DNA from: Limisphaerales bacterium
GTDB lineage: Bacteria; Verrucomicrobiota; Verrucomicrobiia; Limisphaerales; BOG-1460
Length of the DNA: 46,543 nt
Reading direction: 5' to 3'
Assembly (NCBI GenBank): GCA_003159675.1
Contig: PLQC01000154.1
Location: 1-46,543 of the forward strand
The notes under the pieces were generated by a model. It did not search any database. It saw only the letters and a list, made by a program, of their open reading frames with translations, and was not told the origin of the DNA. This document shows positions 33,926 through 45,081 of the stretch, in pieces. Positions within the stretch are counted from its first letter, which is position 1. Each line of letters begins with the position of its first letter. The position numbers and the translations under genes were made by a program.

Positions 33926-33943
33926 CCTTGACGCGGGTCAAGG
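33926..33943. promoter_or_regulatory. FNR/DNR-type operator upstream of the DUF2249 operon
   Basis: CCTTGACGCGGGTCAAGG is a perfect 18-bp palindrome of the form TTGAC-N4-GTCAA, the recognition pattern of the FNR/DNR/NNR family. It lies 178 bp upstream of the first gene of the nitrogen-oxide cluster, between it and ilvD, and could also act on ilvD. The regulator encoded at 36797 is the likely binder. Confidence 0.65.
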
Positions 33944-34120: not shown

Positions 34121-34642
34121 ATGCAACACAAGACCATCACCCTGGACGTGCGGGACGACCTGCGCAACGGACGCGAGCCGTTCTCAAGAATCATGAGCGC
34201 GGCGGCGGCATTGAGCGCCAATGAGGAATTGTTGGTGATCGCGCCGTTCGAACCGGTGCCGTTGTTTCGCATCATGGAAAAGCATGGCTTCCAACACTCG
34301 ACGCGGCCGGCCGAATCCGGCGATTGGGAGGTGCGCTTCACGCGCCGGCCCGAGGCGCAGCCGGCCGGCTCCGCGCCGGCGGCGGCTTCCGACGGTCCGT
34401 GCGGTTGTTCCGCGGTCAGTCCGGCAGGGATCGTGGAAGTGGACGCGCGCGGGCTCGAACCACCGCAACCGATGGTCAAGATCCTTGAAACAACGGCCGC
34501 ATTGCCCGCCGGCGTGGAGTTGCGCGCGCGTACCGACCGCCGGCCAATGCATCTGTATCCGCATCTCGAAGAGCGCGGCTTCACCGCCCAAACCGAGGAG
34601 CAATCCGATGGCAGTTTCCTTACCCATATCCGCCGTGGCTGA
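34121..34642 (+). CDS. tandem DUF2249 protein, 173 aa
   Basis: Two DUF2249 domains occupy residues 3-72 and 104-171: each has a strand VDVRD or VDARGLEPPQPMVKILE, then NEELLVIAPFEPVPLFRIME or AGVELRARTDRRPMHLYPHL and a final GF. The linker has a CGC motif (SDGPCGCSAV). DUF2249 is common in nitrite/nitric oxide gene clusters; its role is unknown, perhaps redox or metal handling. It overlaps the next gene by 35 bases. Confidence 0.8.
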   Translation: MQHKTITLDVRDDLRNGREPFSRIMSAAAALSANEELLVIAPFEPVPLFRIMEKHGFQHSTRPAESGDWEVRFTRRPEAQPAGSAPAAASDGPCGCSAVSPAGIVEVDARGLEPPQPMVKILETTAALPAGVELRARTDRRPMHLYPHLEERGFTAQTEEQSDGSFLTHIRRG

Positions 34643-36050
34643 TCCGTCCCCCGCACGACCGGTTGCCGCCGCCCCGGCACCGGGCGCAAATGCGCCGTCG
34701 GTGACATTGCCGCTGGCGTTTGTGCTGGTCGGCTTGGCGGCATTGCTGGCCGGCATGGGCTGGCTCGTGGTGCGTCCGGGCATCCTCGCCGCGTATCACT
34801 ACAACCAGTATGTCATTGCCGCGACCCACTTGTTCGTGCTGGGCTGGATTTGCTCCGTGGTGATGGGCGCGATGTATCAACTCGTGCCGGTGGCGTTGGA
34901 AACCAAACTTTACAGCCAACGGCTGGCGCGCTGGCAGTTCGCATTTCACGTCGCCGGCTTTACCGGCATGGTCTGGATGTTCCGCAAATGGAACATGGAA
35001 GAGGTCGCCCACTTCGGTTCGGCGTTCGCCTTCGGCGTGGTTTTGTTCGTCTATAACCTGGCCCGAACATTGCGGCGCGTGCCCCGCTGGAACGTCACCG
35101 CCGCGGCGGTCGCGTCGGCGCTGGCCTGGCTTTCGCTCGCGATCATCGCCGGCCTGTCCCTGGCCGCGGCCAAATGCACCTACGATGGCGTTTCGGAATC
35201 CTCGGCGGTCGGCCCGATACTGCACGTTTTTAAATCCGTGGCGGGATTCGTGGCGCGGTTCGACGCCATCAGCGCCATGCACGCGCACGCGCATCTGGGC
35301 GGCGTGGGCTGCTTCACCATGCTCATCGTGGGGGTTTCCTACAAACTCATCCCGATGTTCACTTTGAGCGAAGTGCAAAGTCATCGCCGCGCGGCGTGGA
35401 GCGTCGCCTTGTTGAACCTTGGACTCGCGGGTTCGTTCGTGACCATTTTGCTGCGCAGTCGGTGGAAACCGGCTTTTGCGCTGGTCATCGTCGCGGCACT
35501 GGCGGTTTATGGCTGGGAGATCGTCGCCATTCTGCGCGCGCGGAAACGCCGCGCGCTGGATTGGGGAATCAAATATTTCCTTACGGCCGTCGCGATGCTC
35601 CTGCCTGTGTCTGCATTGGCCATTGTGTTGAGCTGGCCCCGCCTGCCATTGAATGCATTCACCGGACAACTGGAGAACGCCTACGGTTTTCTGGGGCTGC
35701 TGGGTGTCGTGACTTTTGCCATCATGGGAATGCTCTACAAGATCGTTCCTTTTCTCGTCTGGTTCGGTTGTTACAGCCGGCAAATCGGCCGCGTCCGGGT
35801 GCCGGCGCTGGCGGATTTGTATTCGGCGCGATTGCAGGCGGCGGGTTACTGGGCGTTTCTGGCGGGTCTCGCCGTGGCGTGCGCGGGAATTGTCACTTCG
35901 AGCGAAGCCGGTGTGCGATGGGGCTGCGGGTTGCTGGCCCTGAGCACGCTGACGCTCGCGGTCAACGTCGGCTCGATGCTCTCGCATTTCTCCAGGCCCC
36001 GGCTCAAGCCGCTCACCTTTCAATCCTCAACCGTCCTGAAAACCGCATGA
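34608..36050 (+). CDS. polytopic membrane protein, haem-copper-oxidase/NnrS-like, 480 aa
   Basis: I start at ATG 34608 (MAVSLPISAVADPS); the frame is open further upstream but that part is unlike a protein. About 12 membrane helices are visible. Three similar segments recur: HLFVLGWICSVVMGAMYQLV (from residue 74), HAHLGGVGCFTMLIVGVSYK, and YGFLGLLGVVTFAIMGMLYK, each with LG-x7-GxxY-x-(L/I)VP. The histidines (AATHLF, SAMHAHAHLG) sit as haem ligands do in haem-copper-oxidase subunit I or NnrS. It may bind haem b and copper or NO. Exact family not known to me. It overlaps the DUF2249 gene upstream and the DUF59 gene downstream (ATGA). Confidence 0.7.
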   Translation: MAVSLPISAVADPSPARPVAAAPAPGANAPSVTLPLAFVLVGLAALLAGMGWLVVRPGILAAYHYNQYVIAATHLFVLGWICSVVMGAMYQLVPVALETKLYSQRLARWQFAFHVAGFTGMVWMFRKWNMEEVAHFGSAFAFGVVLFVYNLARTLRRVPRWNVTAAAVASALAWLSLAIIAGLSLAAAKCTYDGVSESSAVGPILHVFKSVAGFVARFDAISAMHAHAHLGGVGCFTMLIVGVSYKLIPMFTLSEVQSHRRAAWSVALLNLGLAGSFVTILLRSRWKPAFALVIVAALAVYGWEIVAILRARKRRALDWGIKYFLTAVAMLLPVSALAIVLSWPRLPLNAFTGQLENAYGFLGLLGVVTFAIMGMLYKIVPFLVWFGCYSRQIGRVRVPALADLYSARLQAAGYWAFLAGLAVACAGIVTSSEAGVRWGCGLLALSTLTLAVNVGSMLSHFSRPRLKPLTFQSSTVLKTA

Positions 36051-36364
36051 ACACAACTGAACTGGACGAAGCCGCCGTCCTGGAAGCCTTGCGCCAGGTG
36101 ATGGACCCGGAACTCGGCTGCAACATCGTGGACCTGGGCCTGCTTTATAGCGTCGCCATCACCGGCTCGAAGGTGACCGTGATGATGACGCTGACCACTC
36201 CCGGCTGCCCGATGCACGAGAGCATCAGTTGGGGCGTGAAGAATGCCCTGCTGGGCCTTGAACACGTCGAGGACGTCGAGGTCGGGCTGGTCTGGGATCC
36301 GCCGTGGAACCCAGCCATGATGACGGAATCCGGCCGCAAGGCGACCGGCGTGGGAAGTTTTTAA
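36047..36364 (+). CDS. DUF59/MIP18-family protein (metal-sulfur cluster assembly)
   Basis: The ATG overlaps the previous stop in ATGA. The protein matches the DUF59/PaaD/SufT group: VLEALRQVMDPELGCNIVDL, GLLYSVAITGSKVTVMMTLT, TTPGCPMHESISWGVKNALL, then VEVGLVWDPPWNPAMM. The conserved Cys in TTPGCPM is present. These small proteins help mature Fe-S proteins. In denitrification clusters such a protein stands near nirK/nor genes and may help assemble metal centres of the products. Confidence 0.88.
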   Translation: MNTTELDEAAVLEALRQVMDPELGCNIVDLGLLYSVAITGSKVTVMMTLTTPGCPMHESISWGVKNALLGLEHVEDVEVGLVWDPPWNPAMMTESGRKATGVGSF

Positions 36365-36398: not shown

Positions 36399-36695
36399 AT
36401 GCAAACCGAAAACCTGATTGGCCCGGAAAAGGTCATGGACGTACGCCCGATTCCCTGTTCCGTGAAACACGGCCTCATCATCCAGGCCTGGCTGGAATTG
36501 CCGGTCAACGACCATTTCATTCTGTTGAACGACCACGATCCTGTGCCGCTCTACTACCAGTTTTCCGCGCAATGGCCCGGGACGTTCACCTGGGAGCATC
36601 TGGCGAAGGGGCCGGAAGAATTCCGCGTGAAAATCACGAAGCTGAAACCAACCGCCGTACCCGACAGCACGCCCAGTTGCTGCGCCGGGCATTGA
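36399..36695 (+). CDS. DUF2249 protein with C-terminal CC motif, 98 aa
   Basis: One DUF2249 domain: VMDVRPIPCSVKHGLIIQAW, LELPVNDHFILLNDHDPVPL, YYQFSAQWPGTFTWEHLAKG. The tail ends SCCAGH, with two adjacent cysteines and a histidine that might bind metal. It is the last gene of the plus-strand operon before the Crp/Fnr regulator. A role in nitrogen-oxide metabolism is inferred only from the neighbourhood. Confidence 0.82.
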   Translation: MQTENLIGPEKVMDVRPIPCSVKHGLIIQAWLELPVNDHFILLNDHDPVPLYYQFSAQWPGTFTWEHLAKGPEEFRVKITKLKPTAVPDSTPSCCAGH

Positions 36696-36796
36696 CGAAC
36701 ACCACGGATCAAGGTGTTGTTTACGTGCAGGGCAAGGACGATTTGACAGGACTGGATGGTTTACTTTTGGCGTGAAACTGATTGAATCATCCTGCC

Positions 36797-37516
36797 ATGT
36801 CCGGTGCGCTGGCTGAATTCAAAACAATCGGGATCGCCAATACGCTGCGAAGTTGCCAGCTCTTTGCCGGCCTGCCCCCGCAGGACCTCGAGAACATTGC
36901 GGCAGTCACGGTGATCAAGTCTCTGGAGAAGGGTGATTACCTCTTTCATGAAGGGGATTCCGCCAGCGGCTTTTACATCATTCAACGCGGTTCCGTGAAC
37001 GTCCATCGCGTCACCGCGGCGGGCAAGGAACAGATCATTCACATCTTCCGCACCGGCGAATCGTTCGCCGAAGTGGCGCTGGCCACGGAAAAGGGTTATC
37101 CCGCCGACGCCCGCGCGCTGGAGCCGACCCAGGTGCTGCTCGTGCAAAAGAGTGGAATTCTGGCATTGCTCCGGCGGCAGCCGGAACTCGCGTTGCGCAT
37201 GCTCGGCTCGATGAGCAGCCATTTGCGGGTGCTTGTGGGTCAGCTCGAAGACTTGACGCTCAAGGACGTCGAGACCCGCCTCGCCAACTGGCTGGTCAAA
37301 CGCTGCCCGAATCCGGGAAGCGAACAACCCGCGCGCATCGAACTCACCATGACCAAGCGCATGCTCGCGGCGGAGTTGGGCACCGTCAGCGAAACCTTTT
37401 CCCGCACGCTCGCAATATTTCGCGAACAAAAACTTCTCACGGTCAAAGGCAAAACCATCGTCGTTCTGTCGCCGGCAAAGTTGAACGCCCTCCTGCGGCG
37501 GAATCTCGGAGAATAG
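36797..37516 (+). CDS. Crp/Fnr-family transcription regulator
   Basis: Residues about 15-125 form the cNMP-binding-like beta barrel (KSLEKGDYLFHEGDSASGFY, GSVNVHRVTAAGKEQIIHIF, GESFAEVALATEKGY), followed by the dimer helix and a winged HTH (LTMTKRMLAAELGTVSETFS, RTLAIFREQKLLTVKGKTIV). The N-terminal Cys cluster of classic FNR is absent (only Cys in RSCQLF), which suits the DNR/NNR type that senses NO through haem. The recognition helix TVSETFSR fits TTGAC-type boxes. TTG 36782 is possible, but ATG 36797 is preferred. It is surrounded by nitrite reduction genes. Confidence 0.85.
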   Translation: MSGALAEFKTIGIANTLRSCQLFAGLPPQDLENIAAVTVIKSLEKGDYLFHEGDSASGFYIIQRGSVNVHRVTAAGKEQIIHIFRTGESFAEVALATEKGYPADARALEPTQVLLVQKSGILALLRRQPELALRMLGSMSSHLRVLVGQLEDLTLKDVETRLANWLVKRCPNPGSEQPARIELTMTKRMLAAELGTVSETFSRTLAIFREQKLLTVKGKTIVVLSPAKLNALLRRNLGE

Positions 37517-37615: not shown

Positions 37616-37969
37616 TCAGGGGCGGATCATGGTCAGGATCATCTTGAAGCGCCTGGTTGCTTTCAGTGCGTGAGGCTGCCGGGCGGGCAGCAGGATCAAT
37701 TCACCTCCTTTGACACGATGCGGTTTGCCGGAAAGGGTGATGTCCACCTCGCCTTCCAGCACTTGAACCAGCGCGTTGAAAGGCGAAGTGTGCTCGCTTA
37801 AAGCTTCTCCCTCGTCAAAAGCAAAGAACACCACCCTGCCATTCGCGCCTTTCAGAATCTCCCTGCTGACAATGGAGCCGCTTTGATAATCCACCAACGC
37901 CGCCGCATCGGCCGTTTGACCGGGCTGAAATTTGATCTCCTTCGAACTCTTATCCTGTTGCATGGTCAT
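37616..37969 (-). CDS. small cupin-domain protein, 117 aa
   Basis: A single cupin barrel: motif 1 SEHTSPFNALVQVLEGEVDI and motif 2 KGGELILLPARQPHALKATR. The usual metal ligands H-x-H of motif 1 are reduced to one His (SEHTSP), with Glu and a His in motif 2. Such proteins near NO regulators may act as sensors or isomerases, unknown. It is divergent from nirK; the shared 221-bp region holds an FNR-type box (38125-38138), so both genes could be controlled together. Confidence 0.82.
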   Translation of the reverse strand: MTMQQDKSSKEIKFQPGQTADAAALVDYQSGSIVSREILKGANGRVVFFAFDEGEALSEHTSPFNALVQVLEGEVDITLSGKPHRVKGGELILLPARQPHALKATRRFKMILTMIRP

Positions 37970-38124: not shown

Positions 38125-38138
38125 TTGACCTGAATCAA
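38125..38138. promoter_or_regulatory. FNR/DNR-type box upstream of nirK
   Basis: TTGACCTGAATCAA is a near-palindrome of the FNR/DNR consensus TTGAt-N4-ATCAA. It lies 53 bp upstream of the nirK start, the usual range for activation at about -41. The cupin gene reads away on the other side. Confidence 0.7.
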
Positions 38139-38190: not shown

Positions 38191-39198
38191 ATGAAAACGA
38201 TGCCGATCCTGCTCATTTTAACGGGAACCCTGACCGCCCTGCCGGGCGCGAACGCGGGCCTGCCTCACGTGAAGGCCGAACTCACTTACGCCCCGAACGT
38301 GCCCCCAGCCATCACGCGGCACGAACCCGCCATCGTGGAGGTGGATCTGACCGCAACCCATAAGATGATGCCGCTGGCGTCGTCCGCCGACTATCCTTTC
38401 TGGACTTTCAACGGCCACGTGCCGGGGCCTTTCATCCGCGCCCGGATCGGCGACTGGCTTCAGGTGCACATCTCCAACACCGACACCAGCGGCATGCCGC
38501 ACAACGTGGACTTTCATGCCGCGACCGGACCCGGCGGCGGAGCGATGCTCTTGACGGTGGCGCCGGGCCAGGAACACACGGCCTGGCTGCGGCTCCGTGA
38601 ACCCGGGTTGTTCATTTACCATTGCGCGGTGCCGCCCATGATCGATCACATCGCCAACGGCATGTATGGGCTGATCCTGGTCGAGCCGACGAACGGATTG
38701 CCGCACGCGGATCGCGAATTTTATGTCATGCAAAGCGAGTTTTACACGAAAGACAATCCAACCGGCGCACGAATGCTTGAATACTCGCACGAACGCGCCC
38801 TGGACGAGCACCCGAGCTTCGTCGTGTTTAACGGCCAATCGGGTTCGATGCTGGTCATGGATGCGCTGCACGCCAACACCGGCGAACGCGTCCGGATCTT
38901 TTTCGGCAACGCCGGGCCGAATTTGATTTCGTCGTTCCACATCATCGGAACGGTGATGGAGGCTGTGTACCGCGACGGCGGCGTGGCCGATCCGCCCGCG
39001 CATGGTTTGCAGACCACACTGGTAACTCCGGGCGCGGCCGCGATTGTGGAATTCACGCCTCTCGTGCCGGGCATGTACACCTTCCTGGATCATGCGGCCG
39101 CCCACTCGGAGAAGGGGGCGATGGGAGAAATCCAGGTGAGCGGACCGGCCCGGGCCGACCTCTACCGCTCCGACCAGGACGGCCCGCCCACACAGTGA
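38191..39198 (+). CDS. nirK: copper-containing nitrite reductase NirK
   Basis: Periplasmic enzyme reducing nitrite to NO. A signal peptide (MKTMPILLILTGTLTALPGA, cleavage near ANAG) precedes two cupredoxin domains. Type 1 copper ligands: His in SGMPHNVDF, Cys in FIYHCAVPP, His in MIDHIANGM and the following Met. Type 2 ligands: His in VDFHAATG, His beside the Cys (YHC), and His in SSFHIIG or the C-terminal LDHAAAHSEKGAMG. The active-site Asp/His pair (VDFHAA, FHIIG) is intact. Length 335 is normal. An FNR-type box precedes it; electron donor and NO reductase are not in the window. Confidence 0.93.
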   Translation: MKTMPILLILTGTLTALPGANAGLPHVKAELTYAPNVPPAITRHEPAIVEVDLTATHKMMPLASSADYPFWTFNGHVPGPFIRARIGDWLQVHISNTDTSGMPHNVDFHAATGPGGGAMLLTVAPGQEHTAWLRLREPGLFIYHCAVPPMIDHIANGMYGLILVEPTNGLPHADREFYVMQSEFYTKDNPTGARMLEYSHERALDEHPSFVVFNGQSGSMLVMDALHANTGERVRIFFGNAGPNLISSFHIIGTVMEAVYRDGGVADPPAHGLQTTLVTPGAAAIVEFTPLVPGMYTFLDHAAAHSEKGAMGEIQVSGPARADLYRSDQDGPPTQ

Positions 39199-43503: not shown

Positions 43504-43578
43504 TAACTACAGGAAACAAGTATTTCAACAATGACCTTGCCGAGGGTTAGAGTTGGGAATCAAATACGATTTGGATTT

Positions 43579-45081
43579 ATGAGCAACAACAGCAAAGCAC
43601 CTCAATTGACGACTTCGGCCGGGAATCCCGTCGCCGACAACCAGAACTCCATCACCGCCGGCCCGCGCGGCCCGCTGTTGATGCAGGATTATCAACTGCT
43701 CGAAAAGCTCGCGCACCAGAACCGCGAGCGCATTCCCGAGCGCACCGTCCACGCCAAAGGCACGGCGGCTTACGGCACATTGACCATCACGCACGACATC
43801 ACGAAATACACGAAGGCCGGCGTGTTCGCCACAATCGGCAAGCAAACCGAAGCCCTCCTCCGTTTCTCCACCGTGGCCGGCGAGCGCGGCGCGGCGGACG
43901 CCGAGCGCGACGTGCGCGGCTTCGCGTTGAAGTTCTACACCGATGAAGGCAACTGGGACATGGTCGGCAACAATACTCCGGTGTTCTTCGTTCGCGATCC
44001 TTACAAGTTCCCCGATTTCATTCATACGCAGAAGCGCCATCCAAAAACCAATCTCCGCAGCCAAACGGCCATGTGGGATTTTTGGTCGCTGTCACCGGAG
44101 TCGCTGCACCAGGTCACGATTCTTATGTCCGACCGCGGGCTGCCCCGCAGCTTGCGCCACGTCAATGGCTATGGCAGCCACACCTACAGTTTCATCAATG
44201 CGCGGAACGAACGCTTCTGGGTAAAGTTCCATTTCAAAACCAAACAAGGCATTCAGTGCATGACGAATGCCGAAGCGGACGTCATCATTGCGAAGGATCG
44301 CGAGAGCTCGCAACGCGACTTGTTCGAAGCCATCGAACGCGGCGAGTTTCCCAAATGGCGCTTCTGCGTGCAAATCATGCCGGAGAAAGACGCCGAGACG
44401 TATCGTTGGAATCCGTTCGACCTCACGAAAGTCTGGCCGCACAAAGATTACCCGCTGATTGACGTCGGCGAGTTGGAATTGAACCGCAACCCGGAAAATT
44501 ATTTCGCCGAGGTGGAGCAATCCGCCTTCAGCCCGTCGAATATTGTTCCCGGCATCGGCTTCTCGCCGGACAAAATGTTGCAGGCGCGCATCTTTTCCTA
44601 CGCCGATGCGCACCGTTACCGCATCGGGACGCATTACGAGATGCTGCCGGTCAACCGCCCTAAAGTCGCCGTGAATAATTATCACGCTGACGGCCCGATG
44701 CGCTTTGAAGCGCCCAAAGGCACGAACGCTTTTTATGAGCCAAACAGCTTCGGCGGCCCCGTGGAAAACCACCGTTTCGCCGAGCCGCCGTTGAAGATTT
44801 CCGGCGATGCCGACCGCTACAATCACCGCGACGGCAATGACGATTATACGCAGCCGGGCGACCTTTTCCGGTTGATGTCTCCCGCACAAAAGCAACAGCT
44901 CTTCAGCAATACCGCCGGGGCCATGAACGGCGTGCCGGAAGAAATCGTGCGTCGTCAGCTTGGGCACTTCCATAAGGCGGACCCGGCCTATGCCGCAGGC
45001 GTGGCGAAAGCGCTCAATATCGAGTACGGCGCTCCCCATGCTCCCGAATCAGCGCCGACAATGGCCGGGGGCGTCCGGTAA
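43579..45081 (+). CDS. katA: monofunctional haem catalase
   Basis: Start ATG 43579 ([15 protein letters not shown]). Catalase motifs: [13 protein letters not shown] region with distal His, [12 protein letters not shown] with Asn, [15 protein letters not shown], and the proximal haem Tyr in [20 protein letters not shown]. Length 500, a clade-3-like small subunit without the C-terminal flavodoxin-like domain. It breaks hydrogen peroxide into water and oxygen. Peroxide induction by OxyR is indicated by the operator upstream; the ankyrin gene after it is probably co-transcribed. Confidence 0.95.

Follow-up and report, generated by a model that had tools for sequence, protein, structure and literature searches.

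The window analysed here, a stretch of 46,543 nucleotides, carries a cassette of genes around a membrane protein with the fold of haem-copper oxidase (HCO) subunit I, followed by a gene for copper nitrite reductase. Its features, with the evidence for each in brackets, are as follows.

33928..33941, + strand: FNR/DNR/HcpR-type palindrome TTGACGCGGGTCAA upstream of the cassette (motif search)
34121..34642, + strand: DUF2249 plus TusA-like protein (PF10006, 116.5 bits; PF01206, 31.8 bits)
34608..36050, + strand: 12-TM HCO-fold protein, 480 aa (Pfam COX1, AlphaFold2, alignments)
36047..36364, + strand: Fe-S cluster assembly factor, PaaD/SufT-like (PF01883, 58.7 bits)
36399..36695, + strand: short DUF2249 protein (Pfam, 77.4 bits)
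36782..37516, + strand: Crp/Fnr family regulator (PF00027, PF13545)
37616..37969, - strand: cupin (PF07883, 36.9 bits)
38125..38138, + strand: FNR/DNR/HcpR-type palindrome TTGACCTGAATCAA between the cupin gene and nirK (motif search)
38191..39198, + strand: copper nitrite reductase NirK (TIGR02376, 296.5 bits against a cut-off of 296.3)

The DUF2249-TusA-like gene overlaps the start of the HCO-fold gene by 35 bases, the ATG of the Fe-S factor gene overlaps the HCO-fold stop codon, and NirK is encoded 2.1 kb downstream of the HCO-fold gene. TusA proteins possess a catalytic Cys-Pro, and given that the TusA-like half of the first product reads DARGLEPPQP at this position, it is probably not a sulfurtransferase. 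Near the cluster, the window also encodes a large, HPII-like catalase (43531-45081, + strand; 467.5 bits, below the curated cut-off).

The HCO-fold gene is an open frame of 480 codons from the ATG at 34608, itself enclosed by a longer open frame from 34284. Given that a start near 34608 is kept across homologues, the shorter frame, as proposed in a preliminary description of this DNA, is real. The same description noted three LG-x7-GxxY-x-(L/I)VP repeats in the product. As written, this motif matches only twice (residues 78 and 365); the relaxed form (L/V)G-x7-GxxY-x-(L/I)(V/I)P does match three times (residues 78, 233, and 365), well beyond chance, with a total of four matches over 200,000 shuffles of the protein. 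Each of the three four-helix units has one copy on its second helix (II, VI, and X, respectively). One of the two histidine segments described, HAHAHLGG, is present within MHAHAHLGG, while the other, given as SHLFVLGW, actually reads ATHLFVLGW.

The proposed likeness to HCO subunit I is borne out by both domain and fold comparisons. A Pfam scan at E up to 1 returned COX1 (46.3 bits, cut-off 34.8) and nothing besides. The AlphaFold2 model, computed from a 40-row alignment (A1) of the window protein and 39 of its 48 relatives, comprises 12 long helices with a mean pLDDT of 88.8 and a pTM of 0.87; truncated, frameshifted, or near-copy sequences were left out of A1 (L020, L023, L024, L031, L034, L043, L045, L049, and L052). 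When the model was searched with Foldseek, the best 50 rows were all HCO or nitric oxide (NO) reductase (NOR) catalytic subunits, and VIA-align superposed it at full length on CcoN (8smr_E; Z 35.0, rmsd 3.0 A over 395 residues, model residues 28-465) and on NorB (4xyd_A; Z 33.0 over 379 residues, model residues 28-460). A sequence-only search of the PDB with the single protein as query gave no match, and a search with the A1 profile retrieved CcoN chains only, mostly with unit 1 aligned on helix X. Computation, with a predicted model at its centre, thus shows a full-length, 12-helix, three-unit HCO subunit I fold.

The histidine ligands of this fold are largely absent. In comparison sets drawn from related genomes, all six HCO histidines are kept, in CcoN (16/16; 16 of 20 fetched loci), NOR (9/9; 9 of 10), and COX1 (29 or 30 of 30, depending on the position). 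The HCO-fold family does not hold this set of one histidine in helix II, one in helix VI, and a pair each in helices VII and X: helix VII has none of its pair, and none of the 40 rows of A1 has a histidine at either helix X position, these being mostly Y/L/F and F/Y/V. H74 in helix II (codon at 34827) is found in 39/39 rows with a letter there, the 40th being truncated, and H227 in helix VI (codon at 35286) in 40/40, with H229 in 28/40 and H225 in 24/40. A further alignment, of 13 divergent members, brings in sequences from Thermus, two haloarchaea, and three rhizobia as well as a verrucomicrobial paralogue, and no histidines other than H74 and H227 are invariant in it. The absence of both the helix VII pair and the helix X HxH excludes an FeB/CuB site of known kind; with two invariant histidines, the family could hold at most one bis-His haem and no binuclear centre of known type. 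From this conservation we infer that H74 and H227 would hold a single low-spin haem b.

Among characterized systems, CcoN of cbb3 oxidases is the top fold match, and the best sequence match of unit 1 is the helix X region of CcoN; however, the six CcoN histidines are down to two in the HCO-fold family, and no CcoO or CcoP gene adjoins. NorB and qNOR share the fold, a profile-profile match over 332 columns, and some clusters, with NorB genes themselves adjoining the HCO-fold gene in some genomes, but the family lacks the helix VII pair and the helix X HGH. Pfam likewise gives no cNOR/qNOR assignment for the protein, showing COX1 only and no PF22085. NnrS is another member of the HCO superfamily, with 12 TM helices and two invariant histidines (9/9 NnrS sequences aligned), and the protein had been likened to it. 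As an identity this did not hold, as PF05940 gives no match to the protein at E up to 1 and the NnrS histidines lie in units 1 and 3, rather than in units 1 and 2 as in the HCO-fold family; membership of NnrS was therefore rejected. The neighbouring genes of the two families also differ, while rhizobial clusters contain both. According to passages of PMC1274295, NnrS belongs to NO/denitrification regulons.

The fold family itself fits a wider group. Pei et al. (Protein Sci, 2014) reportedly defined HCOH proteins with three four-helix units, two conserved histidines, and a genomic link to denitrification, and with its 12 TM helices, three units, and two conserved histidines the HCO-fold family matches that definition. 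It would thus fit a known kind of NnrS-like HCO homologue, with the histidine pair placed unlike that of NnrS. We found no description of the protein in the portions covered of the literature on DUF2249, NO, and denitrification regulation, a scope outside which Pei 2014 falls, and nothing on DUF2249 in connection with Verrucomicrobia and nitrite reductase.

The placement of the two histidines raises the question of where a haem would sit. Distances were measured back from the final Pro of the repeat motif, or the residue equivalent to it, by eye on printed sequences, with the columns of A1 counted computationally. In the HCO-fold family, the histidines lie 20 residues before Pro94 in unit 1 and 22 before Pro249 in unit 2. 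In CcoN, the ligand distances are 22 in unit 1, 20 in unit 2, and both 22 and 20 in unit 3; NnrS has 22 for its unit 1 histidine and 20 for the one in unit 3, i.e., the ordinary low-spin pair. The family therefore shows the spacing of a low-spin pair shifted by one unit, a 20/22 rule that is approximate for unit 1, given that the helix II histidine lies at 21 in NOR and at 23 in COX1. The low-spin haem site of HCOs is formed between units 3 and 1, and the pore between units 1 and 2 is not known to hold a cofactor in oxidases or NO reductases. Going by the aligned sequences, the haem site may thus lie between units 1 and 2, or the chain may be circularly permuted, with the haem in the usual low-spin site.

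Comparisons of single units and of whole profiles disagree on a permutation. Unit 1 of the family best matches unit 3 of CcoN and COX. In a 3x3 unit matrix, however, most units score best against the third unit of HCOs, so that the matrix does not decide the matter. Against CcoN, local alignment of the rotated profile covered 312 columns with a score of 65.8, versus 61 columns and 51.4 unrotated, while the remaining rotation reached a tied score over 165 columns and came out highest in global alignment. The natural order was preferred against NOR (332 columns, 73.7), the outcome against COX was mixed, and no match to NnrS was found with any rotation. If the haem does sit between units 1 and 2, the protein would illustrate how cofactors can be positioned within the three-fold oxidase fold.

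The cassette also occurs in many other genomes. We surveyed the neighbours of the HCO-fold gene at 49 loci (the window and 48 relatives), with the counts being lower bounds due to contig ends and with the DUF2249-TusA and Fe-S factor genes of the window counted from the Pfam scan. A DUF2249(-TusA) gene flanks it at no fewer than 44/49 loci, the short DUF2249 gene at 31/49 or more, and the Fe-S assembly factor at 29/49 or more; Crp/Fnr and cupin genes were each found at at least 24/49 and NirK at at least 9/49. Eight of the loci outside Verrucomicrobia encode a COX1-like protein of a single unit with 4 TM helices, and six encode a hemerythrin. The former, ~150 aa with four helices, adjoins the HCO-fold gene in Ignavibacteria, where it has an AHTHL motif, and in Thermus, and represents a single-unit HCO homologue (L034, L035, L038-L043; L150, 6530-6961). 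In Thermus, the order is nar, two DUF2249 genes, a 144-aa COX1-like protein, protoglobin, the HCO-fold gene, and the Fe-S factor, and in the haloarchaea Haloprofundus and Halobellus the HCO-fold gene adjoins nirK and DUF2249.

These Thermus and haloarchaeal loci, together with three of rhizobia, are the six annotated plasmid loci examined out of 117 records with a match. On R. etli p42f, the nor genes are followed by hemN, DUF2249, the HCO-fold gene, DUF2249/TusA, the Fe-S factor, NnrS, nirK, SUMF1, Crp, and NnrU, and S. meliloti pSymA and Shinella have a similar arrangement; in the nir-nor clusters of p42f and pSymA the HCO-fold gene is annotated as a hypothetical protein, as it also is beside nirK in haloarchaea and nar in Thermus. 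In genome G111, a paralogue sharing 33% identity with the window protein comes after norC-like, norB, and DUF2249 genes, and in genome G046 a qNOR gene begins just past the Crp gene of the cassette. That bacteria and archaea share the cassette points to a general, so far unassigned function in living with NO, and its presence in laboratory rhizobia makes direct testing possible. As a separate observation, putative SUMF1-type and SCO-type genes come after nirK in verrucomicrobial clusters (L010, L012, L017, L027, L029, L030, L088, L090, and L091), the SUMF1 neighbour of nirK being common to these clusters and to rhizobia.

Regulatory sites were sought with the pattern TTGAY-N4-RTCAA, an FNR/DNR/HcpR-type palindrome whose consensus forms are given in passages of PMC1274295. 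The window contains two, before the cassette and before nirK, versus 0.17 expected, and these are two of the 19 in the whole genome. Across Verrucomicrobia, 21/26 loci have a site within 1300 bases upstream, versus 0.12 expected from shuffles, although some loci share an isolate record (e.g., four from SJ485) and are thus not independent. The upstream site occurs in just 3/19 loci outside Verrucomicrobia. One of 27 verrucomicrobial loci (L026) and 2 of 21 others were set aside, having under 500 bases upstream. None of the six annotated plasmid loci has a site near the HCO-fold gene.

Co-occurrence was assessed across the order Limisphaerales with 116 genomes, the own family of the window genome being represented by one of them. 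The HCO-fold gene was found in 22, NirK in 23, NOR in 10, and NnrS in 28. NirK-positive here means about 140 bits or more, which retains 23 of the 30 genomes matching at E up to 1e-10 and leaves out one carrier of the HCO-fold gene (G005, 132.7 bits). The HCO-fold gene occurs together with NirK in 10 genomes versus 4.4 expected (p 0.002) and with NOR in 7 versus 1.9 expected (p 0.0003), both uncorrected for kinship, and with NnrS in 5 versus 5.3 expected. Among NirK genomes, NnrS is present in 3/10 with the HCO-fold gene and 10/13 without it (p 0.04, likewise uncorrected). NirK and NnrS are themselves associated in the order, with 13 genomes having both versus 5.6 expected (p 0.0002, also uncorrected); most of these lack the HCO-fold gene. 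Neither NirK nor NOR was found in 9/22 carriers in the order, and in carriers outside Verrucomicrobia (genomes of 18 of the 21 loci) NorB matched in 3/18 and NirK in 1/18, with NirS outside the search; the role of the protein may thus be wider than denitrification.

Gene order in many clades, the regulatory site, and the co-occurrence with NirK and NOR together uphold the suggested link to NO and denitrification. The further suggestion of a novel NO-reductase-like enzyme fails, given the missing binuclear-centre ligands, the presence of the gene in 7/10 NOR genomes of the order, and its place in rhizobial nor clusters, and it was rejected as the main reading. As NOR coexists with the HCO-fold gene above chance, the protein looks like an accessory and not a substitute, and since rhizobia hold NOR, NnrS, and the HCO-fold gene together, it is not simply a replacement for NnrS either. 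On balance, we lean toward an accessory membrane protein of denitrification or nitrosative stress, with the fold of HCO subunit I and without a binuclear centre. It probably helps cells cope with NO rather than reducing NO itself, so that NO handling in the wider sense is the preferred reading, and it is best read as a putative single-haem, NnrS-like accessory of NO metabolism that would work with DUF2249 and Fe-S factors. The haem may bind NO or pass electrons to the soluble DUF2249/TusA partners at the membrane. With the Fe-S factor, the protein might protect or repair Fe-S enzymes exposed to NO from NirK or from elsewhere, and it could act like NnrS, conferring NO tolerance without NO reduction through a haem held by a different pair of units.

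An unlikely alternative is a sensor or relay, in which the protein would sense NO, nitrate, or redox state via its haem and signal through the DUF2249 proteins to Crp/Fnr. DUF2249 is the most constant neighbour (at least 44/49), a Crp gene is linked at 24/49 or more, and in Thermus the HCO-fold gene lies downstream of two DUF2249 genes after nar. Thermus DUF2249 proteins DrpA and DrpB are described in passages of PMC7694296 and PMC6282519 as nitrate-responsive regulators, DrpB being cytoplasmic but membrane-attached; those passages, however, make no mention of the HCO-fold protein. Crp was also not found at half of the loci, and the Fe-S assembly factor and the betaproteobacterial hemerythrin suit repair better than sensing.

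We give rather little credence to a compound proposal in which the haem occupies the third pore, that of units 1 and 2, either through a shift of the haem by a third of a turn or through circular permutation of the chain, and the protein acts with its DUF2249 partners as an NO sink in NirK organisms without NO reductase. A new kind of NO-consuming enzyme, reducing or oxidising NO at a single haem and replacing NOR in NirK organisms, seems more doubtful still. The genome of the window, in an assembly that is 96.7% complete, encodes NirK, and the search for norB and qnor proposed in the preliminary description detected neither PF22085 nor, with a NorB query, NorB; NnrS and the flavodiiron ODP domain were likewise not detected. 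Six genomes of the order survey have the gene and NirK without NOR. However, the helix VII pair and helix X HxH are missing, the gene is enriched rather than depleted in NOR genomes and sits in nor clusters, and at 96.7% completeness a NOR gene may be missing from the assembly. Equally improbable is an electron-transfer subunit or quinol-linked cytochrome b that would feed NirK or another reductase with no role in NO itself: in oxidases, electrons enter this fold at a low-spin, bis-His haem, and NirK or nar lies beside the gene in several clades, but the genes that recur next to it encode DUF2249 proteins and Fe-S factors, with no constant cytochrome c or cupredoxin among them.

The COX1 family in the window genome comprises an aa3-type oxidase, a divergent CcoN-like gene, and the HCO-fold gene only. 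The CcoN-like gene (contig C42; L002, 1411-2865, + strand) encodes a 484-aa protein that, compared with CcoN, has D at the helix VI CuB histidine, lacks the helix VII HH, and does not keep one of the two helix X histidines, and is by these substitutions a putative cbb3 relative without an active site. It lies beside a cytochrome c gene (CcoO-like), and another of its neighbours is presumably ActF-like.
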